Of a stretch of DNA of 64,000 bases, positions 44,241 through 55,713 are shown one piece after another. Both the position numbers and the translations under genes were made by a program. This DNA comes from Gelidibacter mesophilus DSM 14095 (GTDB taxonomy: Bacteria; Bacteroidota; Bacteroidia; Flavobacteriales; Flavobacteriaceae). The stretch is taken from assembly GCF_000423005.1 (NCBI RefSeq), contig NZ_AUHD01000008.1:124001-188000 (forward strand), written 5' to 3'. Numbering within the stretch: position 1 is the first letter of the stretch; each line of letters begins with the position of its first letter. The notes below the pieces were generated by a model. The model worked only from the letters and a program-made list of their open reading frames with translations. It ran no database searches and was not told the DNA's origin.

Positions 44241-45377
44241 TTAATAATTGTCTAAGGTGTTTGTATTAATGCTTAGCGATTTTAAAGTAATTAAAAAAAG
44301 AAAACAATTAATTGGGTAATAGAGAAAGTTACCTGCAATTATTATAAAAAACAAAACTGAAGTAAAACAAAAGATAGTTAATTTATTAATTACAAAATGT
44401 CGTTTTAATATTATAAAAAAAATAATGAATATAATTACGCCTAAAGTGCCAAAATGTAATATTATATCCACGAGATCCATCTCTACCCTATGTTCAAAAA
44501 GATTGATACCTCCAGTAATTAAATTATAATCGAGTTGACTTAAATTGTGCCAAACAGAAACTATGGCGTCATTTCTATATGAAAATATTGCAGATAGTAT
44601 TCCATCAGTATCTATAATACTCAAGAAGGTGCCTTGATTGAAAAGAAAATAAAGGGAGATTAAAAAAATAACGACCAAAATAAAACTCATTATTCGTTTT
44701 GATTTTTCGTTTTTTAAATTTGTAAGAATCATATAAATTCCAATGCACAATAAAAAGAACAATAGAATTTTAGTTCCTATAACTAACGAACTTATTACAC
44801 TGATTGTAAAAAAAACCATGTCTTTTCGATTGATAGCAATAAGAATAGCCGAAATATAGAAATAAGTAGATTGCATTGAAGTTAGCAGCAATCCGTTGTA
44901 GCCTAGCCGCAAGTAATAAGTCTGAAAAAGCTTGACATCAAATAAAATTCCTAGAATGATGAAGAAAATATTGATGTACACCAAATATTTAAAAATGCGT
45001 TCTACATATTTTATCCATAATTCATTCTGATTGTTGAATAAAAACATAGGAGCAAAAAAGAAAAAACAGCTATATTTTAGAAAATATTCAAAACTCAAAT
45101 CATATAAAAACCAATTCAAAAGGTTGATTATTAGTAACGAAACCAACAACAAGTAGATTTTACTTATCTTCTCAGGTATGCTTTTGAACAAGAAATAAGA
45201 ACAGCCAATAGACACTAATACTAGCAAGACTTTGACATATCTATTCGGCAATGTAAAAGTACTATGGTCTATTGGCAATTGGATAAGAAATTTACTTAAA
45301 CCATCTGCAATATAAATAGTTATAAGGCTGACTGTGATGATGAAAATCGTATTTTTTTCAATTTTCGATTGTTTCAT
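44241..45377 (-). CDS. O-antigen polymerase-like protein (Wzy candidate 1)
   Basis: About 378 aa from the ATG at 45377 (a TTG two codons upstream is possible). About 10-12 transmembrane helices; no sequence motif that names it, as is usual for Wzy. It would polymerise repeat units in the periplasm. It overlaps the preceding gene by about 20 bases. It is one of three Wzy/WaaL-like proteins in a row. Confidence 0.7.
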   Translation of the reverse strand: MKQSKIEKNTIFIITVSLITIYIADGLSKFLIQLPIDHSTFTLPNRYVKVLLVLVSIGCSYFLFKSIPEKISKIYLLLVSLLIINLLNWFLYDLSFEYFLKYSCFFFFAPMFLFNNQNELWIKYVERIFKYLVYINIFFIILGILFDVKLFQTYYLRLGYNGLLLTSMQSTYFYISAILIAINRKDMVFFTISVISSLVIGTKILLFFLLCIGIYMILTNLKNEKSKRIMSFILVVIFLISLYFLFNQGTFLSIIDTDGILSAIFSYRNDAIVSVWHNLSQLDYNLITGGINLFEHRVEMDLVDIILHFGTLGVIIFIIFFIILKRHFVINKLTIFCFTSVLFFIIIAGNFLYYPINCFLFLITLKSLSINTNTLDNY

Positions 45378-46632
45378 AGTCAAATATTGAAAATATAATC
45401 AAAAAGAAAGGAAAAGCGATAACCCCCCATTGCCTATTTAAAATTGATTCAGTAATAAAACCCAAAAAAAAGATATTTGTTATCAAAAACAAATATAATT
45501 TGGTGACAGAAGACTTATAGGCAAAATAGAAAATGAAACCTAACAGAATTAAACCCATTGGACCAACATATAATAAGGTATCTAAGTATTGATTGTGGGC
45601 ATTGTATTTATTATAATAAGCCAAATAAAATTTATCTTTTTTAAATTGGTTTATTAGGGCCTGCTTGCCATCGCCAACGCCATATCCAATAACCGGTCTT
45701 TTTGCTATACCATTTATAGCACTCCTCCATTTCTTTACACGTAATGAGGTACTTCCAAAATCATCTTTGTAAAATGCTTCTTTGTATGAAAACGCTTCAA
45801 AAAATCGCGTCTTCGTTACAGGATTAATTAAACTGACTAAAAGTATAAAGGACGCACATAACGTAATTCCAAGGAGTTTTTTGGAAAGTCTTAAATCTTC
45901 AAAAAATAAAATGAAAATAACAAAATTTAGAGCAAAAATTAGAATTTGCCATCTTGAGGCTGTGAGTAATATTAAAACGCTTAATACTATGAGCTTAAAA
46001 TAATAATATTTGATTTGTTTTATCTTCTTAAGAAAGAACAAAAAAACAATTCCTATGTTAGTAAAAAGCCCTAAATAAATAGGCTGGATGACCAAAGGGG
46101 ATGTGAAATTATCATAAACAAAATACCAGTAATTGAAATAGCTATATTTATCTTTCGGCACTTCTAGCCCTTGTAATCTTTGATAAACATACTCAATGGA
46201 ATAGCCCTCATTCCAATTCTTATAAAAGGCAATGAAAACTAACAGAAAAAAAATACAACATAAAAAGCTTATGAAAATATTTGAAATAAAGGATAAGCTT
46301 ATCTCTTTCCTGGAAATGAACAATGGAAGTATAGGAATAATTAAAAGCGGGAATGACTGACTAACATAAGCAATTCCATTATTTAAATCTTTGGAATAGA
46401 TTAAAGACACGACTAGAATTACAAAATAAAGAATAAATGTTATAGAAATATTAGTGATATTATCCTTGTAAAAAGTTTGCTTATTTCTCAGATATCTAAT
46501 TAGAACAAAAACAAAGAGCAGCCCAATAAAAATTGGATTTAATATAAGCGGCGGTATTATAAAAGTTATTATTATTAACGCCACTAAAATATTTACAACC
46601 CCAATATTTTTTAATTTAGAAATCATTTCCAT
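45358..46632 (-). CDS. O-antigen ligase/polymerase family protein
   Basis: 424 aa, about 12 helices. The periplasmic loop and RPVIGYGVGDGKQALI...NAHNQYLDTLLYVGPMGL segments match the O-antigen ligase (Wzy_C/WaaL) family signature H/N-rich motif NAHNQYLD. It may ligate or polymerise the glycan. It overlaps the DUF1972 glycosyltransferase by 17 bases. Confidence 0.85.
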   Translation of the reverse strand: MEMISKLKNIGVVNILVALIIITFIIPPLILNPIFIGLLFVFVLIRYLRNKQTFYKDNITNISITFILYFVILVVSLIYSKDLNNGIAYVSQSFPLLIIPILPLFISRKEISLSFISNIFISFLCCIFFLLVFIAFYKNWNEGYSIEYVYQRLQGLEVPKDKYSYFNYWYFVYDNFTSPLVIQPIYLGLFTNIGIVFLFFLKKIKQIKYYYFKLIVLSVLILLTASRWQILIFALNFVIFILFFEDLRLSKKLLGITLCASFILLVSLINPVTKTRFFEAFSYKEAFYKDDFGSTSLRVKKWRSAINGIAKRPVIGYGVGDGKQALINQFKKDKFYLAYYNKYNAHNQYLDTLLYVGPMGLILLGFIFYFAYKSSVTKLYLFLITNIFFLGFITESILNRQWGVIAFPFFLIIFSIFDYETIEN

Positions 46633-47734
46633 AAAGTTTAGACATCAAAAAAGTCTCATACTGAGAGTTGATATAGTTCCAATTGAAATTGGTATTTATT
46701 TCATCTATGTTATGGGATTTATAGAGCTCTTTATATTTTTTATAAACTGAATCATTATCAATAATGTGTTCTACATCTGTAGAATTGTTAAAATATAATG
46801 CATTGCCTTTTAAAATACTTTTGTTGAAAACATTATCATTTGCAACAATTAACGCGCCTGATGCCATTGCTTCTAGCAAAGAAGGATTTGTCCCTCCAAC
46901 GGAATGACCATGAAAATAAAGTTTTGAATAATATCTCAAATTATTCAAATGGTTTAAATTATAAACTCCTCCAATGAATTTTATATGTTTTTGGTCTTTG
47001 TATTTCTCCTTTAAATAGGCTCCAAATTTATTAACATCATGTTTACCGATAACTAGAAATAAATCCTTTGTTTTAGCAGCGCTTACACCATCTAAAATAA
47101 CCTCAATATTGTTTTCAGGTTCCAATCTTGCTATCAACATGTTGTACTGACCAGCTTTTACTTTGTATTGCTCTAAAACAGTCTCTGAAGGTTGTTCAAA
47201 TACATCAGCTCCATAAGCAATGTAGGTGGATTCTTTTTTATAAGCATCTCTAATATATTGTTGTATTCCAATGGAGTCTGAGATTAGGAAATCACTATTA
47301 AAAATAGCTAACCCTTCTGCATATTTTAAAAATTTTCTAACTGGTTTTTGATATTTTGATCTCTTCCATTCCAAACCATCCATGTTAGTAATTACTAAAG
47401 AGGTCTTTGGCATTAATTTGCTCCACACGGAACTGCTTGTATACCCTAATTGGAGAATGATATCATAGTGTTCTTTTCTGCAGTGCATCACACAGTTAAG
47501 ATCATATATAAATTGCCCTGCAGTACCAATGTTATTTTCAGGATCCTTTTTATGAATTATTTTTACCCCATTCCACTCTTCAAGTTGATAAGGATGGGTA
47601 TGTGAATTAAAAACACTTACATCGTGTCCTTTATCAACCATATAAAGTGAAAAATACTCAGCAAATTGCTCAAATCCTCCATGATTATTTGGCACACCTC
47701 TAGTCCCTAATATAATTAGCTTCATTTTTTTCAT
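46616..47734 (-). CDS. DUF1972-type glycosyltransferase
   Basis: 372 aa. GT-B protein whose N-terminal ILGTRGVPNNHGGFEQFAEYF is the DUF1972 signature; C-terminal GHSVGGTNPSLLEAMASG is the donor-site block. DUF1972 enzymes include rhamnosyltransferases; given the rfb genes downstream this is attractive but inferred. Start at 47734 gives two possible ATGs three codons apart. Confidence 0.85.
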   Translation of the reverse strand: MKKMKLIILGTRGVPNNHGGFEQFAEYFSLYMVDKGHDVSVFNSHTHPYQLEEWNGVKIIHKKDPENNIGTAGQFIYDLNCVMHCRKEHYDIILQLGYTSSSVWSKLMPKTSLVITNMDGLEWKRSKYQKPVRKFLKYAEGLAIFNSDFLISDSIGIQQYIRDAYKKESTYIAYGADVFEQPSETVLEQYKVKAGQYNMLIARLEPENNIEVILDGVSAAKTKDLFLVIGKHDVNKFGAYLKEKYKDQKHIKFIGGVYNLNHLNNLRYYSKLYFHGHSVGGTNPSLLEAMASGALIVANDNVFNKSILKGNALYFNNSTDVEHIIDNDSVYKKYKELYKSHNIDEINTNFNWNYINSQYETFLMSKLYGNDF

Positions 47735-48908
47735 AAATCATCATGTAAAATAGATATAGTAAGAGAATTGGATAATAATAGTAGAAGCCATTAAAAAAAG
47801 CTGACAACCAAAAGCTAGAAAAAGCCAAAAATATAAAAATATTACTCTTTATAATGACTTTGTGTCGTTTATAAATATTTATGAATAAGATGAAATATAG
47901 AATTAGTGGTATAATTCCATAGGAATACGAAATACTCAAAAAATCATTATGAAACCAAATACTGTTGAAGGTATTCTTAAGATTTGCTTCAATAGAAGAA
48001 TTAAAGCCACGCCCAAAAAGAACATCAATTAAATTAAATGTTTTGATTTCCTTCCACCAAGAAGACCAAATTATCACTCTTGAGAGCCTACTAAAGTTTG
48101 ATAAAATTGTTTTAACAACTGTAAGATATTGGTAAATAATAGTGTTGCTAAACACTATTAAAACCTTATCTATATATATAATAACCAAGGTCCCTAAAGT
48201 AGCCAAAGGAATAAGAAATTTTAAAAACTTTACCTTAAAATAGTACATCGCTAATCCTAATATCATTACAACAATAGGTGTTCTGGATCCTGTTAAGAGT
48301 ATTATGGTAGCTAAAGGAAGCACCGTAATAATATACCTAAGGCTTGATGCTCCATACGTTTTATATTTATTCAAAAAGTATAACAATAGAAACATAAAAA
48401 AATAAGATGCTATATGTGCTTTTCTAAAAAAGCCCTGCCTATAAGATCTACTAAACTCTATGTCTGTGGTCTCGTACCCCATAGTATTACCCCATAAATT
48501 TTGATCAAAACCAAGATAAGTTGATAAAAACAAGAGGAGTGAGATAATTAAAAAAAAATTAATCAGTTTTTTATTTGACGTTATACTTTCAGCACTTTTG
48601 CCATAACCATAAAAGTAAAAAGCACCAAAAAAGGAAATTATAAACAAATAATCAGATAACGACTCTTTATAGAATCCATATCTTAGAAAATTAAGTATTA
48701 ACGAAACAGTAAAAAAAAGGACAACAATTAAAAAAGATTGATATTTTTTGATCGAAAAAAAACCAGGAATTAAAAATGAGCAGAATAAAAAAATAAGTGA
48801 TATTACAAACAGAGGAATATTGTAAAAATAATTCACCACACTATCCAAGACAAAAACGAAAACATATACAAAAAAAATTATCGATCTTTTATCTAATGAC
48901 ATTAGCAT
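47700..48908 (-). CDS. O-antigen polymerase-like protein (Wzy candidate 2)
   Basis: 402 aa with about 11 transmembrane helices, including a periplasmic loop with RVIIWSSWWKEIKTFNLIDVLFGRG. GxG-loop and the RSYRQGFFRKAHIASY segment recall Wzy/EpsG-like families. It overlaps its neighbours by 35 and 7 bases, so translation is likely coupled. Confidence 0.7.
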   Translation of the reverse strand: MLMSLDKRSIIFFVYVFVFVLDSVVNYFYNIPLFVISLIFLFCSFLIPGFFSIKKYQSFLIVVLFFTVSLILNFLRYGFYKESLSDYLFIISFFGAFYFYGYGKSAESITSNKKLINFFLIISLLLFLSTYLGFDQNLWGNTMGYETTDIEFSRSYRQGFFRKAHIASYFFMFLLLYFLNKYKTYGASSLRYIITVLPLATIILLTGSRTPIVVMILGLAMYYFKVKFLKFLIPLATLGTLVIIYIDKVLIVFSNTIIYQYLTVVKTILSNFSRLSRVIIWSSWWKEIKTFNLIDVLFGRGFNSSIEANLKNTFNSIWFHNDFLSISYSYGIIPLILYFILFINIYKRHKVIIKSNIFIFLAFSSFWLSAFFNGFYYYYPILLLYLFYMMIYEKNEANYIRD

Positions 48909-49759
48909 ATTTTTTTAATTGCTTTGTCAGGTCTAAACATACTTGAAAGACCTAAGAACCATATTTTTTTTAACCAATTCTTTTCAAAATAATAATTTCT
49001 ATAATATTTTAAATTAAGATAGTTTATAAGTATTTTAAAATTACTCGTTTTAGTTTTAAAAATTTCATCTCTTAGATCGTAAGTTTTTTTTACCGTAGAA
49101 TATGGTAAAGCATTAGAAACACTATTTTCATGAATCCTAACAAAAGTAAGGGTTTCTTTAATACTTTGCGCATTTGCCCCACCCTTTATCATTCTCGCGA
49201 AGATGTCATAATCTTCGGCTGGCACTTGTTTTTGGGAATATTTGTATTTTTTAAAAAGAGTGGTTCTCACCATTATAGTTCCATGCAAAAGGCCATGTTC
49301 TCCTTTTTGATACCTTTTATAGATAAGTTCACCTTTTTCAGGAAAATTTGAAGACCCAACCTTATTTTCTATATTTTCATTAAAGTAAATCACATTAGAA
49401 CCCGTAAGATCAATATCACGGTTTTCATTTAAAAAATTATATTGTTTTTCTATTCTTGTTCGCTCCAATATATCGTCTGGATCAATTCTTAAAATATATT
49501 TTGCGGTTGCTTCTTCAACACCAACATTGAGAGCGTTTGCAAAACCTATATTTTTCTTTAAATCAATTACTTTAAGGTACTCTAAATTATATTTTGACAG
49601 AATGGCCAATGAATCGTCTGTCGAGCCATCATTCACTAAGATAACTTCCTTAACAAGCATACTGGACTCCATGACACTGTTCAAAAACTCCTCCAAATAT
49701 TTACCATTGTTATAATTGGCGCACACAATGGATACATCACAAACCTTCTTATTACTCAT
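48902..49759 (-). CDS. Glycosyltransferase family 2
   Basis: 285 aa. GT-A fold: VSIVCANYNNG (nucleotide site), LVNDGSTDDSL, and the DxD-type LRIDPDDIL. Inverting transferase adding one sugar of the repeat unit. Overlaps the GT-B gene upstream by 8 bases. Confidence 0.9.
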   Translation of the reverse strand: MSNKKVCDVSIVCANYNNGKYLEEFLNSVMESSMLVKEVILVNDGSTDDSLAILSKYNLEYLKVIDLKKNIGFANALNVGVEEATAKYILRIDPDDILERTRIEKQYNFLNENRDIDLTGSNVIYFNENIENKVGSSNFPEKGELIYKRYQKGEHGLLHGTIMVRTTLFKKYKYSQKQVPAEDYDIFARMIKGGANAQSIKETLTFVRIHENSVSNALPYSTVKKTYDLRDEIFKTKTSNFKILINYLNLKYYRNYYFEKNWLKKIWFLGLSSMFRPDKAIKKIC

Positions 49760-50768
49760 AGCTCATATATCTTTTCTTTTGATCCTTATCCATGATATGA
49801 TCAATATAATGATTGATTTTAGGGTTTTTAGAGGTGGTTTTTATGCTTGATAGCACCTTGTGTCCAAAGCTTTCGGCGTAATACAGCAGAGAGGTGTGCA
49901 TCCCGATAACCATAAGTTTTTTTGACTTTAAAAATTCGAGTTCTAAAATAACACTATCATTCAAGCATACTACACTTTCAAACTTTGAGAGGTGTTCAAT
50001 ATAACTTAAAGTTTTCTTTCTAATTTCGTCGTTTTGCTCTGGATGAAACTTTACTAGAAGTTTTTTGTTTTTTGACTTTAAAAGGTCCAATGTGGTTTTG
50101 ATAATAACATAATACTCTTTTTCGCTAATCTTGGTTCTTTCCATAAATGAATCCAAAACAAATACCAAATCACCATCTTCAACTACCGGCGCATACTCAG
50201 CTATTGCTTCTCTATTTATAGCGACTATCTTTTTATTTTCAATAAAAGGAAAACCATTTTCATTTACAGTAATTGCATATTTAAATTTTGCCAAGGGAAA
50301 TGGTCGATAGTGGTTATTCTTTAAAACAAAGCGCTTACTTATCCTACTCGATAGAAATTGAGAAAGCCCTGTTTTTGTGGGTAGATAAAGGGATTCATCA
50401 AATTTATATGCAGTTATACCTTCTTCTATCAAAACTGTGTATTCACACAATTTATGGCTGCTCAAAATTTGAAAAATTGAGTGATTAAACTGAGGTACAT
50501 ATACAGTGAAAGCATCATTATCTACCAACAAATTTATTTGAGCGTCCAATGTTTTAATTTTTCTATTTAAATTAAACAATTTGTTAAGCTTAGAAACTTG
50601 TTCCAAATAATTATAAAAACCTGTAATGTCAAGTGTTATGGACTCTTCTCTTAAAGCATATCTTCTTGAGGTAATAAACTTCACCTCTTCAGATAGCAGT
50701 TTATGCTCAGCAATAAAAAGCTTTGCCATGACATAAGTGATATGGCTGTGAATATAAAAAACGTGCAT
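49752..50768 (-). CDS. Sialyltransferase-like GT-B glycosyltransferase
   Basis: 338 aa, not named with certainty. It carries EEG (residues 115-117) and, about 125 residues later, FHPEQ (HP at 242-243) followed by HTSLLYYAE (291-299). The D/E-D/E-G and HP pair plus a Ser/Thr block is the bacterial sialyl-/polysialyltransferase pattern (CMP-sugar donor GT-B). The neighbouring CMP-sugar synthetase-like gene fits. No signal or membrane segment, so it works at the cytoplasmic face. It overlaps the GT2 gene by 8 bases and is 2 bases from the flippase gene. Confidence 0.6.
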   Translation of the reverse strand: MHVFYIHSHITYVMAKLFIAEHKLLSEEVKFITSRRYALREESITLDITGFYNYLEQVSKLNKLFNLNRKIKTLDAQINLLVDNDAFTVYVPQFNHSIFQILSSHKLCEYTVLIEEGITAYKFDESLYLPTKTGLSQFLSSRISKRFVLKNNHYRPFPLAKFKYAITVNENGFPFIENKKIVAINREAIAEYAPVVEDGDLVFVLDSFMERTKISEKEYYVIIKTTLDLLKSKNKKLLVKFHPEQNDEIRKKTLSYIEHLSKFESVVCLNDSVILELEFLKSKKLMVIGMHTSLLYYAESFGHKVLSSIKTTSKNPKINHYIDHIMDKDQKKRYMSYE

Positions 50769-50770
50769 AT

Positions 50771-52204
50771 TTAGACCTTTTTTAGAAGTTTTTTCAAATT
50801 GAAAAACTTCATTTTATAATTCAATATTAAAAGAACAACCATATAATAAACAATTGCAGAACCCACTACAACCCATTTTATTCCGAAGAATGCGTTGATA
50901 AAATAAAAAGGTAGGTAAAGTACAATGGAAACAAAAATGATTTTAAAATATGTTTTTACAGGAAAATAGTCACTAATTTTAAGTTTCAACTTTTTATTTA
51001 TAAAATAAAATGAGATTGCTATAGTACTCAAACTGGCAATAACAATTGCCCAGGATGCCCCAATAATTCCATATATAGGTATCAATACAATATTTAAAAT
51101 CAAACCAATGATTGCACTAAGCAAAATAATAAAATTAGAGCGTTTTTCTAAACCTATGCTTCCCATAAATACAGAAAATGCCATGACGCTTAAAGAATAT
51201 CTTAATACATATATTTTAAACACCTCTCCCGAAGCTTCAAAACCATCACCATATAAAAATTTAATTAAGGGAATTGCTTCAAAAAAACAGTAAATTAAAA
51301 TTGGCATTAAAAAAAAAGCGCACTTAATAATGGCTTTTTTGGTTTCTAGAGCCAATTCTTTTATTTTGTCTTTCACATTCAATTCAGCAAAAACTGGAAT
51401 TAAGGCAATAAAAAGTGAGCTCGTAATTATATTGACAAAAGGAAGGTTGATGGCCCCGTTCTGATAATAAACAAACTCCGTGGGATTTAACAATGTGGCC
51501 ACTAAATATTTGTCAATATATAAATTAAAAGCCCCAAGAATTACTCCTGTAGTTATAGTCAAGATGTAGATAAATTCATTTTTATTGAAGGCCGCAAAAT
51601 TAATCTTCAGTTCCTTTTTTTCTATGATTACAAAGTTAATTGTTAACCTGAAAATCTCAACACATAATAGTTGAATGAGAATGTTTTCAATACTAAAATT
51701 CCCGAAGATATAATTGTACGTAAAACATCCAACTAAAGTAACAGTCGTAATAATATACAAAAAAAGGTACTTATTTAACTTATCTGTGAGATAATGATAG
51801 TTTGGAAAGATTGTATTGATCAATTTTATAAAAAAAAAAGATACGATTACAAATATAAAGCTTTCGAAAGCTTCATTTTGGAAACTTGTAGCTATAAAGC
51901 CTTTAAGGATAAAAACTAGTGAACAAAGAATAAGTGCAATTGCACTTAACATTAAGAAAAACTTTCCGAACAACAAGTGTTTCTTTTCTGACTCACTGTA
52001 TTTTCCGTAAAAGAAATTTAAAGATAGTGGCATACCAGAAATTAAGGTCACCAAAACTGAAGAAATAAAGATAATTTGCAACAGCTGGCCCAATGCATTC
52101 TTATCTAATAAGAAACGCGACAAAAAAATCGAAATTAATAAAACTTCAAAAGTTCTTATCAAATTCGATAAAGAAAAAAGTACCTTATTATTTAGTCGCA
52201 TCAC
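50771..52204 (-). CDS. Polysaccharide flippase (Wzx)
   Basis: 477 aa, about 14 transmembrane helices, MVF/Wzx-type. It moves undecaprenyl-linked repeat units across the inner membrane. Its start overlaps the HAD gene stop by 4 bases (ATGA). Confidence 0.85.
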   Translation of the reverse strand: MMRLNNKVLFSLSNLIRTFEVLLISIFLSRFLLDKNALGQLLQIIFISSVLVTLISGMPLSLNFFYGKYSESEKKHLLFGKFFLMLSAIALILCSLVFILKGFIATSFQNEAFESFIFVIVSFFFIKLINTIFPNYHYLTDKLNKYLFLYIITTVTLVGCFTYNYIFGNFSIENILIQLLCVEIFRLTINFVIIEKKELKINFAAFNKNEFIYILTITTGVILGAFNLYIDKYLVATLLNPTEFVYYQNGAINLPFVNIITSSLFIALIPVFAELNVKDKIKELALETKKAIIKCAFFLMPILIYCFFEAIPLIKFLYGDGFEASGEVFKIYVLRYSLSVMAFSVFMGSIGLEKRSNFIILLSAIIGLILNIVLIPIYGIIGASWAIVIASLSTIAISFYFINKKLKLKISDYFPVKTYFKIIFVSIVLYLPFYFINAFFGIKWVVVGSAIVYYMVVLLILNYKMKFFNLKKLLKKV

Positions 52205-52815
52205 AAGTTGATGTTTGTGAATGTATTTATATAATGGTCTTTATTTTTAAGGTCACTATTGTTATAGCCATAAAACGTGATGCCATTTGAGGTTGCTGCA
52301 TCAAAATCATTAATTGAATCACCGATTAAACAGGTTAGGCTTTTAGAATAACCATGCTTATTTAAAAGCTCTTGTACCAATATGCTTTTGGGAGTTGGAG
52401 AACCATGGATAGACAAAAAATAACTTGACAATTTTAATTCTTGACACAAAAATCGAAGTTCCTCTTGATCTGATCCAGATACAATATGAAAATTATAAGT
52501 TTTATAATTATTTTCAATGAAATTTACGGCATCTTGAATTAGGTTTTTTGGATGGGTTAATTCAACCCGCATTATATCAGAAAATTTTGCTGCAAAATCA
52601 TGAACCTTTTCTTCAGTAATTTCCTTATTCAAAATATTTTCAAAAAAGTACCGTATTTTGACATACCGCGATAAACCACCATTTGCGCGATGGTATTTTA
52701 TCAGTTGGTTGACTGAATCCTTACCAAACTCTTTGAATATTTCTTTAAAACCAAAATCCCTAACTTCCATGGAGTCTAAAATGACACCGTCAAAGTCCCA
52801 TAAAATATTCTTCAT
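52201..52815 (-). CDS. HAD-superfamily phosphatase
   Basis: 204 aa. Motif I WDFDGVILDS (Asp7, Asp9), motif II VSGSD, motif III Lys in TPKSILV, motif IV GDSINDFDAA. Cap-containing phosphoglycolate-phosphatase-like HAD. By its neighbours it may dephosphorylate a ulosonic acid phosphate in the CMP-sugar pathway, in the role of KdsC; this is inference. Confidence 0.88.
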   Translation of the reverse strand: MKNILWDFDGVILDSMEVRDFGFKEIFKEFGKDSVNQLIKYHRANGGLSRYVKIRYFFENILNKEITEEKVHDFAAKFSDIMRVELTHPKNLIQDAVNFIENNYKTYNFHIVSGSDQEELRFLCQELKLSSYFLSIHGSPTPKSILVQELLNKHGYSKSLTCLIGDSINDFDAATSNGITFYGYNNSDLKNKDHYINTFTNINL

Positions 52816-52821
52816 TGTTTT

Positions 52822-53568
52822 TTATTTGTTATTATCTAATTTTTCGAGAATTTCCCTGACTTTGATTGCATCATCTTGTGTGTCAACCGCAACGGAATCT
52901 GATGATAACTCAAGCATTCTTACTTCATACCCTAATTCTAAAAACCTTAAAATCTCTATATCTTCTTCTTTTTCCAATGGTGATTTTTCTGTCTGCTCCG
53001 CAAATTTGATCAACGTGTTTTTCGGAAATCCATAGACACAGATTTGCCTCCAAGATTTTTGAAAGCTTCTAGATTTATTACCAGGAATGGGTGAACGTGA
53101 CATATATAACAAACGCTTATCAGGCCTAAAAACTACTTTCGGGATTGTTAAGCTGTTATACTGCTCAGCAGTTTCTATAGCTGCATAACCATTAATAATA
53201 TCGTTTGGAAATTGGATAACAGCGCTTATGACCTGTTGTATATCTTCAGGGTTTATTAATGGCTCATCCCCTTGAACATTAATGTAGGATTTTGCTTTGA
53301 TTTTTTGCGCAAATTCAGCCACCCTGTCTGTGCCTGTCAAACAATTAACAGAAGTCATTTCTACATTGATATTATGTTCTAAACAGTATTTGAAAATTCG
53401 GTCATCATCAGTAGCCACATAAATTAAATTTTTATCTACAGCCTTACAGCATTGCTCATAGGTTCTCAATAGCAAACTTTTACCATTTAAATCAATTAAA
53501 GGTTTTCCGGGTAGGCGAGATGATTTATATCGGGCAGGAATTACTATAACAAAATCTTCCATTTTCAA
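52822..53568 (-). CDS. kdsB: CMP-Kdo synthetase-like cytidylyltransferase
   Basis: 248 aa. VIPARYKSSRLPGKPL (CTP-binding), LLMS/MSRSPIPG, QVQGDEPLI-like NVQGDEPLI, and the length fit 3-deoxy-manno-octulosonate cytidylyltransferase. It activates a 2-keto sugar acid as the CMP-sugar. The organism will also need KdsB for LPS Kdo, so this copy may be a paralogue with another substrate; position in the polysaccharide locus with an aldolase favours that. Confidence 0.85.
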   Translation of the reverse strand: MKMEDFVIVIPARYKSSRLPGKPLIDLNGKSLLLRTYEQCCKAVDKNLIYVATDDDRIFKYCLEHNINVEMTSVNCLTGTDRVAEFAQKIKAKSYINVQGDEPLINPEDIQQVISAVIQFPNDIINGYAAIETAEQYNSLTIPKVVFRPDKRLLYMSRSPIPGNKSRSFQKSWRQICVYGFPKNTLIKFAEQTEKSPLEKEEDIEILRFLELGYEVRMLELSSDSVAVDTQDDAIKVREILEKLDNNK

Positions 53569-53618
53569 CTATATCCTAATTAGCATTAAATTGATGAGAA
53601 CGCAAATGACCATGGGTA

Positions 53619-55157
53619 TTAAATAAAACTGTAAATTGAGGTGGTTGCCACTTTTTTATATTTAGTTGGTGTAATGGTCTTTATGTTTAAATATTTAAAC
53701 CTTAAAATATCATTAATAATATTCTGATTTTCTTGAGCCAAAACAAATTGAGTTTGGTCAATTGACGTATCATAACCATCAAATCCGGCTAAAAGAATAT
53801 TTTGAACGCCCAAATTTAAAGCGGTTTGTATCCCAATTGCCAATAACGAGTCTTTAGATGCATTTGTAAAGTCAATGGATGCCAACTCATAAGAGATGTC
53901 TTTAATTTCAGCAGGAATAATAGTGCCCATATTTCTAGGAAATGGTGGATAAACACATCGGTGATCGATCTTGGTTAAACTACCAATATTTCTCAATAAT
54001 TTTTCACTTTCAAACCCTACAAGCGCATAGAATTGACTAACATTAACGTCAATGAAGTCAGACACATTTCTTGCACCTGCGTGCACAATACAAAAGCCTT
54101 CGTCACTTTCTGCCAATTTTTTAATACCTCGATAATGATTTTTGACAGATTTACCACCACCTAAAATGATAGCGGTTTTAAATGTGGAAGTTTCGTTTAA
54201 AACTGGAAGCTTAATGTTATCATCTAAAGATTCCTTTTGGTTGTTCAAAGCATTTAAAATGCATCCTAATGAATACCTATTCATTCCTACCCATTCCATT
54301 ACTTGTTTTTGAGGCAATGAAAAGGCTCCTGAAAACATATATGGTAGATTGGTTCCCCAAGAATGGTGGGACTTTAGTGCTTCAAAGGATGACACAACAC
54401 CGCTCATACTTGCATACCTAGTTTTTAGAATGTTTTTGCTATCAAAATAGGTCAATAGCAACTCCGTTCTCAAATTACCTGCCCCCCTACCCATTCCAGT
54501 GATGGTGCCGTCAACAATTTGACAACCTTCTTCTATGGCCGTAATGGTATTGATTAAGGCCATTTCTAAATTATTATGACCATGAAATCCTAAAGGAACG
54601 GTTGTTTTTGATTTTACTAAGTTCACGATTTCAACCACATCCTGCGGCAAAACGCCACCAAATGAGTCCACCATATAAAAGTAGTCAATTGTGTTTTCCA
54701 AGCCCTCCAGTAAATCCAAAAAGCTAGAATCTTCTTGCCATTTGGACATATACATTACATTGAAAGCAACTTCAAACCCCATGGCCTTTACTGCTTTTGC
54801 CAAGACAATCGCTCGTTCCATATTTTTAGGGTCTATTGCTATTCTTACCATAGTAATGTATGGTAAACATGGCTCTAAAAGTGATTTAACGTGAACTGCT
54901 CTTATGTTTTTTTCATCAAGAATAATGGTTAGTTTTTTGGAAGGCATCAACGCTTTCATCTCTTTCATAACGTACTCAGGACAATAAAAATATTCTCCTA
55001 AGTATCCTTCCAGCCTAATACTTCTATATCCAATTTCAACATAATCAATAGGAAGTTCTTCCATTGCTTTGCAGTAATCTTCAACAAGTTCTTTATCAAA
55101 ATCCCAATTGGTATAATAACCACCATCTCTAAGTGTACAATCTAATATTTTCGCCAT
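53619..55157 (-). CDS. DRE-TIM aldolase fused to a C-terminal Rossmann-like domain
   Basis: 512 aa. Residues 1-260 are a DRE-TIM metallolyase (4-hydroxy-2-oxovalerate aldolase-like): DCTLRDG (6-12), VDSFGG, HGH metal pair (192-194), GMGRGAGN (221-228). Residues about 320-512 are a second domain beginning AIILGGGKSVKN (333-337 GGGKS) and containing ILLAGFDGYD (457-463), which resembles DUF115/GT42-like folds. Family members cleave or make 4-hydroxy-2-keto acids with pyruvate. It precedes the cytidylyltransferase by 50 bp. A C-C bond forming role in ulosonic acid synthesis is inferred. Confidence 0.72.
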   Translation of the reverse strand: MAKILDCTLRDGGYYTNWDFDKELVEDYCKAMEELPIDYVEIGYRSIRLEGYLGEYFYCPEYVMKEMKALMPSKKLTIILDEKNIRAVHVKSLLEPCLPYITMVRIAIDPKNMERAIVLAKAVKAMGFEVAFNVMYMSKWQEDSSFLDLLEGLENTIDYFYMVDSFGGVLPQDVVEIVNLVKSKTTVPLGFHGHNNLEMALINTITAIEEGCQIVDGTITGMGRGAGNLRTELLLTYFDSKNILKTRYASMSGVVSSFEALKSHHSWGTNLPYMFSGAFSLPQKQVMEWVGMNRYSLGCILNALNNQKESLDDNIKLPVLNETSTFKTAIILGGGKSVKNHYRGIKKLAESDEGFCIVHAGARNVSDFIDVNVSQFYALVGFESEKLLRNIGSLTKIDHRCVYPPFPRNMGTIIPAEIKDISYELASIDFTNASKDSLLAIGIQTALNLGVQNILLAGFDGYDTSIDQTQFVLAQENQNIINDILRFKYLNIKTITPTKYKKVATTSIYSFI

Positions 55158-55161
55158 CTAA

Positions 55162-55713
55162 TTAATCCATTAAAGAGAACGTTATGTCTTCCAAGTTTAT
55201 CGAAACAAAATTAGGATCATAAGCTCCATCAATTGGTTCTGTAATAATTTCTTGATCACTCTCCCCGTAAACAACAAATTTATTCGGTTTAAATAATTGT
55301 TCAAATTTGCCATCGTCAAAAACAAATTCATTCTTATCAAATCGAATTTTAAGAGTGTTCAGTTTTATCGGATCCTGACCATAATTTGTTCCAAAATCCA
55401 AGCGCAAACCATTTGGAATTATGTCTTCTGGAAGAGCAAAAACTAATTGTTGGTTATCTTTTTTTCCTTTTACATTAACCTCGATGACCTTTTCTTCCGA
55501 ATAACCTTCATCATTAAAGTCTTTGTAAAAGACATGAAATATATCATCCTTCAAAACAACCACGTCCATTATTACCTCAAAATACATATTCCCTTCAATG
55601 TCATTATTTTTTATAATAGTATTGGCATCTGAAGGTTCTATAGCTTGTTCTTTTTTATCTGATTTGCATGAAATCAAAGAAGCAAAACAAATAAGTATAA
55701 TAATTCTTTTCAT
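55162..55713 (-). CDS. Lipoprotein, function unknown, at the head of the aldolase operon
   Basis: 183 aa. Lipobox SLISC (Cys16) and a Lys/Asp-rich linker, then a beta-rich body ending DITFSLMD. It sits four bases from the aldolase ATG and directly downstream of a consensus promoter, so it is likely the first gene of the operon. No family recognised; position is unusual, since most genes here are cytoplasmic or inner-membrane. Confidence 0.7.
   Translation of the reverse strand: MKRIIILICFASLISCKSDKKEQAIEPSDANTIIKNNDIEGNMYFEVIMDVVVLKDDIFHVFYKDFNDEGYSEEKVIEVNVKGKKDNQQLVFALPEDIIPNGLRLDFGTNYGQDPIKLNTLKIRFDKNEFVFDDGKFEQLFKPNKFVVYGESDQEIITEPIDGAYDPNFVSINLEDITFSLMD

Follow-up and report, generated by a model that had tools for sequence, protein, structure and literature searches.

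An aldolase–cytidylyltransferase–phosphatase cassette in a surface polysaccharide locus of Gelidibacter mesophilus DSM 14095: candidate route to a CMP-activated sugar acid other than Kdo

The pathway to 3-deoxy-manno-octulosonic acid (Kdo; KdsA, KdsC and KdsB), and its capsule version (KpsU), comprise condensation to a phosphorylated 2-keto-3-deoxy acid, a phosphatase of the haloacid dehalogenase (HAD) type, and activation with cytidine triphosphate (CTP). The nonulosonic acid pathways (NeuB/NeuA; pseudaminic and legionaminic acids) likewise use cytidine monophosphate (CMP) activation by enzymes of family PF02348. The KdsB and NeuA families both activate 2-keto acids via the anomeric hydroxyl group, and, to our knowledge, every established route to a CMP-activated ulosonic acid that we considered begins with a phosphoenolpyruvate (PEP)-dependent synthase of the KdsA/NeuB type. 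Here we describe a gene cassette in a 64,000-nt stretch (hereafter the window; contig NZ_AUHD01000008.1, positions 124,001 to 188,000) of the genome of Gelidibacter mesophilus DSM 14095 (4.43 Mb, 55 contigs). The cassette would follow the logic of these steps, has a KdsB homologue in common with the Kdo pathway, and differs from it in a DRE-TIM aldolase-like protein (ALD), with no KdsA in the locus, in a HAD phosphatase of another type, and in a KdsB-like enzyme of a separate clade. Conserved in marine and other bacteria, it appears to assemble an unusual acidic sugar and to activate it for incorporation into a surface polysaccharide.

Five intact open reading frames (ORFs), all on the minus strand, occupy positions 49752-55157 of the window; in transcription order they are:

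53619..55157, minus strand: ALD, 512 amino acids (aa), two domains, similar to 4-hydroxy-2-oxovalerate (HOA) aldolase; Pfam HMGL-like, PF00682, E 6.7e-23
52822..53568, minus strand: KdsB-like cytidylyltransferase, 248 aa; CTP_transf_3, E 2.6e-40
52201..52815, minus strand: HAD-IA family phosphatase, 204 aa; HAD_2, E 4.7e-16
50771..52204, minus strand: Wzx-type flippase, 477 aa; Polysacc_synt_3, E 2.4e-12
49752..50768, minus strand: glycosyltransferase (GT) of the polysialyltransferase family, 338 aa; A-2_8-polyST, PF07388, E 6.4e-10

The initial annotation of this DNA had proposed these five as consecutive or near-consecutive genes, with EEG and HP motifs in the GT; Pfam agrees for each ORF, and both motifs are visible in the translation. 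The listed start of the KdsB-like gene is TTG, with an ATG at codon 3. The absence of a PEP-dependent synthase (KdsA/NeuB) from the locus, also claimed there, was borne out for the window: a phmmer search of its ORFs with the two NeuB proteins and the two PF00793 proteins (KdsA type or 3-deoxy-arabino-heptulosonate 7-phosphate [DAHP] synthase type) of the genome gave no match at E 1e-6.

With a probability of roughly 0.6, the product of the first three genes is a CMP-activated 2-keto-3-deoxy sugar acid other than Kdo, formed via pyruvate aldol addition, dephosphorylation and CMP activation, followed by GT transfer. The metal-dependent, HOA-aldolase-like barrel of ALD would add pyruvate (as enolate) to a small hydroxy-aldehyde, most likely phosphorylated, to give the phosphate of a 2-keto-3-deoxy-4-hydroxy acid; the HAD protein would remove the phosphate; the KdsB-like enzyme (or a NeuA-like enzyme in other cassettes) would couple the anomeric 2-hydroxyl group to CMP from CTP; the PF07388 (or GT29) glycosyltransferase would add the residue to a repeat unit; and the flippase would export the repeat unit in a locus of the Wzx/Wzy type. 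We infer these reactions, their order and the identity of the aldehyde from the gene set and its conservation, from its location apart from the NeuB genes and those for lipopolysaccharide (LPS) Kdo, from the changed signature of the KdsB-like enzyme and from the family of the GT.

The activated acid must close its ring via C5 or C6, so that the aldehyde should have at least two carbons and a hydroxyl group. The HAD protein is above the cut-off of TIGR01549 (HAD-IA; 28.5 bits vs 23.3) and matches the beta-phosphoglucomutase and phosphoglycolate-phosphatase models below theirs, which points to a small aldehyde that carries a phosphate group; glyceraldehyde 3-phosphate or erythrose 4-phosphate would be a guess. 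It is not KdsC (TIGR01670, 14.6 bits vs a cut-off of 106.95), its DFDGV, SGS and GDSxND motifs are conserved in 45 aligned members, and no PDB match was found at E 1e-5.

Relatives of ALD were sought in a genome collection with one genome per species (84,980 species by the collection's description), in a scan seeded by six peptide patterns that recovers near relatives and is not exhaustive. It yielded 44 strong loci (L007-L050; 41 in Bacteroidota, two in Balneolota [Balneola, Rhodohalobacter] and one in Campylobacterota [Malaciobacter]) and one weak non-member, L051. The neighbourhood counts refer to 42 loci, after removal of two in which a contig end cuts ALD (L034, L048) and of L051, which is without ALD. 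A cytidylyltransferase gene follows ALD on the same strand in all 42 loci, so the gene set is not a chance assembly; it follows immediately in 38, and in the other four (L018, L025, L027, L028) one or two genes, for an HpcH/HpaI aldolase and/or an epimerase, lie in between. A HAD of the same kind is found within the stretch in 39 loci, immediately 3' of the cytidylyltransferase gene in 37 and elsewhere in two (L013, L043). The order of the window also recurs on three plasmids of Leisingera (Alphaproteobacteria), where an ALD of about 25% identity is followed by a KdsB-type protein and then a HAD. Among 395 genomes drawn from the phylum of the window (its own included), a full-length ALD match (E < 1e-200) was present in nine, in one of them as two copies and in another with an internal stop; the cassette is therefore accessory. 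In nine genomes of the genus searched for KdsB-type proteins, the cassette's KdsB-type copy was seen only in the window genome.

The cytidylyltransferase is of the KdsB type in 21 of the 42 loci and a shorter, NeuA-like protein in the other 21; PF02348 was confirmed directly for members of the window, L010, L043, L084 and L089. On a maximum-likelihood tree of 49 ALD proteins (excluding L082 and L086, copies of L025 and L037, and L089, whose score was below the set limit), in which 23 were labelled KdsB-type and 25 NeuA-like, the label changes 13 times, with at least eight changes forced by the starred branches. Shuffling of the labels gave a mean of about 16 changes, and 33 of 500 shuffles were as low as observed, so that the type of cytidylyltransferase is only weakly tied to the ALD lineage. 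Because both families act on the anomeric hydroxyl group of 2-keto acids, the simplest reading is that the ALD product, or a derivative of it, is the substrate of the adjoining enzyme.

If the product is indeed CMP-activated, sialyltransferase-like transferases would be expected nearby. The window GT matches the alpha-2,8-polysialyltransferase family PF07388 with 39.5 bits (gathering score 23.3) and is a candidate transferase of the activated acid. PF07388-type proteins occur in the fetched stretch of 13 of the 42 loci, nine in the group of the window protein and four in a Pedobacter group (L032, E 4e-61), and GT29-type proteins in four (the L046 member matches PF00777 at E 2.3e-13), giving 17 loci with GTs of sialyltransferase families; a weak PF07388-type protein was seen in L050. 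PF07388 was scanned directly for the window and L032 proteins and the other GTs were assigned by cluster models, and the 13 loci are not independent, since the Pedobacter and Winogradskyella loci are near-copies. No PDB match for the L032 GT was found at E 0.01. In the window genome PF07388 matches twice, beside the cassette and about 2 kb beyond the cytidylyltransferase gene of a NeuB-containing gene pair on contig C1; it was found in six of 80 Bacteroidota genomes (own included). The GT29-type genes of L035, L045, L046 and L047 (at about 10.8-11.6 kb), in Gramella and Salegentibacter, lie directly 3' of the HAD gene. A neighbouring family of 327-aa proteins (c27) was considered as a distant polysialyltransferase and rejected, as this family was not among the best matches in a profile comparison.

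ALD residues 1 to about 310 form a DRE-TIM barrel close to HOA aldolase (DmpG/BphI/MhpE family), with its RDG and HGH motifs; HOA aldolases are the nearest named relatives of ALD by sequence and fold (NF006049, 105 bits; TIGR03217, 94 bits). The closest structure is PDB 3DXI (52% identity over 301 columns, Foldseek E 4.5e-38), the N-terminal domain of the putative aldolase BVU_2661 of Bacteroides vulgatus, whose entry title gives no function; it belongs to the same family as ALD and holds the barrel alone, and HOA aldolases rank next. Residues R10, D11, H192 and H194, of the motifs that we take to provide the DRE-TIM metal and substrate residues, are invariant in 43 aligned ALD proteins, and together with N228 they are kept in at least 97% of 49 rows, including those of five loci with an additional aldolase (see below). 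Unlike in HOA aldolase systems, no aldehyde dehydrogenase was found among ten neighbouring genes scanned. The AlphaFold2 model of the whole protein has a mean confidence (pLDDT) of 89.5.

Differently built HOA-like proteins (348 and 681 aa) were also seen near PF02348 cytidylyltransferases (L076, 3598-7273; L075, 3143-6049), in L076 with fusion to a class-III aminotransferase and an aldo-keto reductase; CTP-dependent enzymes may be paired with HOA-like proteins more widely than in this cassette (two of nine such loci, L072-L080). On a Desulfobaculum plasmid (L092, 3846-8014) an HOA-like gene of about 28% identity lies with rfbH and two transketolase genes, possibly another carbohydrate use of this aldolase family.

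Several observations weigh against the proposed pathway. Three Bacteroidales loci (L039, L040, L041) have no HAD in the fetched stretch, and 25 of the 42 loci are without a strong PF07388- or GT29-type gene; three of the 80 genomes carry the cassette, and PF07388 adjoins it in the window genome alone, lying 1.3 Mb away in one of the others (G005) and not being found in the third (G054). In L041 (9524-11022) a KdsB-type and a NeuA-like gene stand in tandem after ALD, so the two types need not be interchangeable. Among 54 sources (the window, the 44 loci of the scan and nine others) a NeuB homologue was found in the fetched stretch of five (L009, L026, L027, L042, L087). The difference from the nonulosonic acid pathways, with which half of the cassettes share a NeuA-like enzyme and some a GT of the polysialyltransferase or GT29 families, lies here: no NeuB was found in 49 of the sources, the window among them, and in four of the five with NeuB a second cytidylyltransferase gene is present (none was found in L042). 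ALD itself is far below the cut-off of the HOA-aldolase equivalog (TIGR03217, 94 vs 286 bits), and the His after RDGS in the HOA aldolase 4LRS (RDGSH), presumably the catalytic base, is replaced by Tyr14, invariant in 43 ALD rows. Finally, five loci contain an HpcH/HpaI aldolase inside the cassette:

L018, 9596-10363: HpcH/HpaI aldolase
L025, 9551-10267: HpcH/HpaI aldolase
L027, 9534-10244: HpcH/HpaI aldolase
L083, 5389, minus strand: HpcH/HpaI aldolase
L084, 5343, minus strand: HpcH/HpaI aldolase

The HpaI aldolases, with 2-dehydro-3-deoxyglucarate aldolases as closest PDB relatives of that of L018, imply that ALD may not be the carbon-carbon-forming enzyme of the pathway, or not the sole one; in these five loci there are either two aldol steps, or ALD does something else. 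We regard it as unlikely overall that the DRE-TIM domain supplies the aldehyde or catalyses a cleavage or a Claisen-type reaction, while another enzyme (HpaI where present) forms the 2-keto acid, the end product still being a CMP-activated acid. The Tyr in place of the His of 4LRS and invariant polar residues of the C-terminal domain (D460, Y462, N477, Y500, S507), which would allow a second reaction, fit such a role; against it, HOA aldolases are the named families closest to ALD, and the HpaI model, the only one used to look for further aldolases, had no match at E 1e-5 in the remaining cassette loci. L083 and L084 are two cassettes about 20 kb apart within one genome, and in L072 a weaker HpaI relative (E 6e-8) adjoins a 337-aa HOA-like gene.

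The C-terminal domain of ALD (residues 318-512, pLDDT 92.5), which HOA aldolases lack, adopts an MptE-like, Rossmann-type fold in the model. Its best Foldseek match, and the only one below E 0.001, is 8SD5, an archaeal MptE-type 6-hydroxymethylpterin diphosphokinase (HPPK; E 8.7e-4, 16% identity, TM-score 0.49). The MptE-like model PF01973 matches 26 of 44 ALD family members at E up to 0.05 (best 4.2e-7), whereas the window ALD, at 18.7 bits, stays below its gathering score of 34.6. The domain has near-invariant residues of its own (GGG 333-335, E383, G458-x-D460-G-Y462, E476-N477, Y500, S507) and is therefore probably a nucleotide-binding or catalytic domain. A second domain of ALD had been noted in the initial annotation and is present; neither its MptE-like fold nor the HpaI aldolase of some loci was foreseen there.

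The domain was also considered as a sialyltransferase of the GT42/GT29 type (the CAZy labels that we assume for the sialyltransferase PDB chains), an idea that arose from a pattern, from top sequence matches to alpha-2,3/8-sialyltransferase chains (E 0.19 to 0.47, not significant) and from Foldseek matches to the sialyltransferase ST6GALNAC2 (E from 0.012 upwards, probability 0.92 at that value). It was rejected because the best fold match is the MptE-type HPPK, and unrelated proteins of lower probability rank between the two; thiamin pyrophosphokinase (E 7.7e-3, probability 0.97) also stands in this lower part of the ranking. When the domain was compared by profile with GT29-type proteins from neighbouring loci, the sole match spanned 20 residues and had a probability of 19%.

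The second enzyme of the proposed pathway passes the subfamily model NF009905 (277.9 vs 255 bits) and is below both kdsB equivalogs, NF003948 (149 bits, cut-off 281) and TIGR00466 (137.4, cut-off 155.2); NF003948 does not discriminate, as none of the 20 genomes searched has a KdsB that reaches its cut-off, the window genome with its own copy on contig C3 included. In a tree of 47 KdsB-family proteins, 24 cassette proteins, those of Leisingera included, formed one clade (support 100/99) that excluded 19 LPS copies and three PDB sequences, with 1GQ9 outside; L075, L087, L107 (a copy of L003) and L112 (odd composition, long branch) had been left out, and with L075, L087 and L112 kept, support was 80/68 for the cassette grouping and 97/79 for the 24-row core. 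Four residues of ordinary KdsB are replaced in all 24 cassette rows, namely His (22 of 22 ordinary rows) by Gln175, Gly (22 of 22) by Cys177, Arg (21 of 22) by Lys165 and Val (20 of 22) by Pro143, and Phe (22 of 22) is replaced by Met156 in 21 of the 24. We take the altered His and Arg positions to be ones that contact Kdo. The motifs assigned by pattern to CTP and Mg binding (I10-P11-A12-R13, Q99-G100-D101-E102-P103 and D229 near the C-terminus) are retained in at least 95% of the 47 rows. PMC3149649 assigns the C-terminal domain of KdsB to Kdo binding, and the replaced positions align to the part that matches this domain. Judged from these residues, the cassette enzyme still resembles a CTP:2-keto-acid cytidylyltransferase, though probably one not for Kdo.

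The genes of the ordinary pathways were located elsewhere in the genome. It has two PF00793 genes, of which the 276-aa frame at C1:351416 is taken as KdsA by its size and score and the longer one on C5 as probably DAHP-synthase-like; a KdsC gene on C19, above the TIGR01670 cut-off; and four PF02348 genes. Two of the latter, C1:21505 and C9:67701, lie 2.5 and 1.6 kb from the NeuB genes C1:18284 and C9:65373, and the gene on C3 (254 aa) corresponds to the KdsB found in 20 of 20 genomes searched (own included). With C3 as the LPS-type KdsB and the C1 and C9 genes near NeuB, the window copy is the only one of the four without a PEP-type synthase to pair with. A plain LPS Kdo pathway was rejected on the grounds of these separate KdsA-, KdsB- and KdsC-type genes and of the distinct clade and residues of the cassette KdsB. 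The core proposal of the initial annotation, a CMP-activated 2-keto acid distinct from plain Kdo and made without a PEP-dependent synthase in the locus, thus gains support as an inference from the separate Kdo and NeuB genes, the KdsB clade and the sialyltransferase-type GT family.

It is improbable that the cassette is a second, PEP-independent CMP-Kdo route for a capsule, like KpsU beside KdsB in Escherichia coli. The Leisingera homologues are annotated as 'aldolase catalytic domain-containing protein', '3-deoxy-manno-octulosonate cytidylyltransferase' and 'HAD family hydrolase', and the best PDB match of the window KdsB-like protein is 1GQ9, taken to be KpsU; however, 1GQ9 retains the H, G, R, V and F of the Kdo type, which give way to other residues in the cassette clade, and stands outside that clade, no KdsA homologue was found in the 54 sources at E 1e-6, KdsA-, KdsB- and KdsC-type genes exist elsewhere in the genome, and the HAD is not KdsC.

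Aldol reactions are reversible, and with two NeuB genes and a KdsA-type gene in the genome, ALD could instead run in the retro-aldol direction and clear an unwanted keto acid, while the cytidylyltransferase serves the product of NeuB or KdsA elsewhere in the cell. The tight order of ALD, cytidylyltransferase and HAD across phyla, with repeated swapping of the cytidylyltransferase family, and the separate cytidylyltransferase gene near each NeuB make this very doubtful. Activation of a substrate other than a sugar acid, such as a phosphonate, with the aldolase as part of that pathway, is highly implausible: nucleotidyl activation is known in phosphonate biosynthesis (PMC6697681), but both CTP-dependent families here belong to PF02348, and a search of the genome with PF13714 gave no convincing PEP mutase, only one partial match above the cut-off (64-147 of 240, in a 557-aa frame, probably another superfamily enzyme) and one below.

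The layout of the surrounding genes is that of a Wzx/Wzy-type surface polysaccharide locus. Genes resembling rmlA/B/C/D, a UDP-sugar decarboxylase gene and an initiating sugar transferase gene were recognized by eye, and a GT2 family protein, a GT4 family protein and O-antigen-ligase/Wzy-like proteins by Pfam scan. Several O-antigen polymerase/ligase-like membrane proteins are encoded within 44241-48908 (minus strand), and a small ORF lies directly upstream of ALD:

44241-45383, minus strand: O-antigen polymerase/ligase-like, by eye only
45358-46632, minus strand: O-antigen polymerase/ligase-like, above the PF04932 cut-off
47700-48908, minus strand: O-antigen polymerase/ligase-like, just under the PF04932 cut-off
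55162..55713, minus strand: small ORF, 183 aa, with a lipoprotein-like N-terminus (by eye)

The Pfam scan gave no match for the small ORF; its homologues (cluster c21) adjoin the cassette in five loci (L007, L011, L012, L017, L023).

Modules for CMP-activated ulosonates are already known, and the cassette is a variant of them with a real chance of a new sugar. No description of the cassette was found in the open-licence PubMed Central (PMC) literature, among the matches listed, by title and abstract opening. At odds slightly short of even, we suggest that it represents a widespread and undescribed class of CMP-sugar-acid biosynthesis, with a metal-dependent pyruvate aldolase, fused to an MptE-like nucleotide-binding domain, in place of the PEP-dependent synthase, and with a 2-keto-3-deoxy product that is new to nature or known only as an orphan glycan component. 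One such component is 3-deoxy-pentulosonic acid, which occurs in a Klebsiella capsule; its name gave no match in the open-licence PMC literature.

If the proposal is true, there would be a further entry to CMP-activated surface sugars, in which the activating enzyme is paired with a different aldolase; the orphan structure 3DXI would receive a testable function, and genes annotated as KdsB would not all encode Kdo enzymes. The cassette would then be a marker for new acidic sugars in marine Bacteroidota, and could suggest routes for orphan 2-keto acids in glycans such as 3-deoxy-pentulosonic acid.

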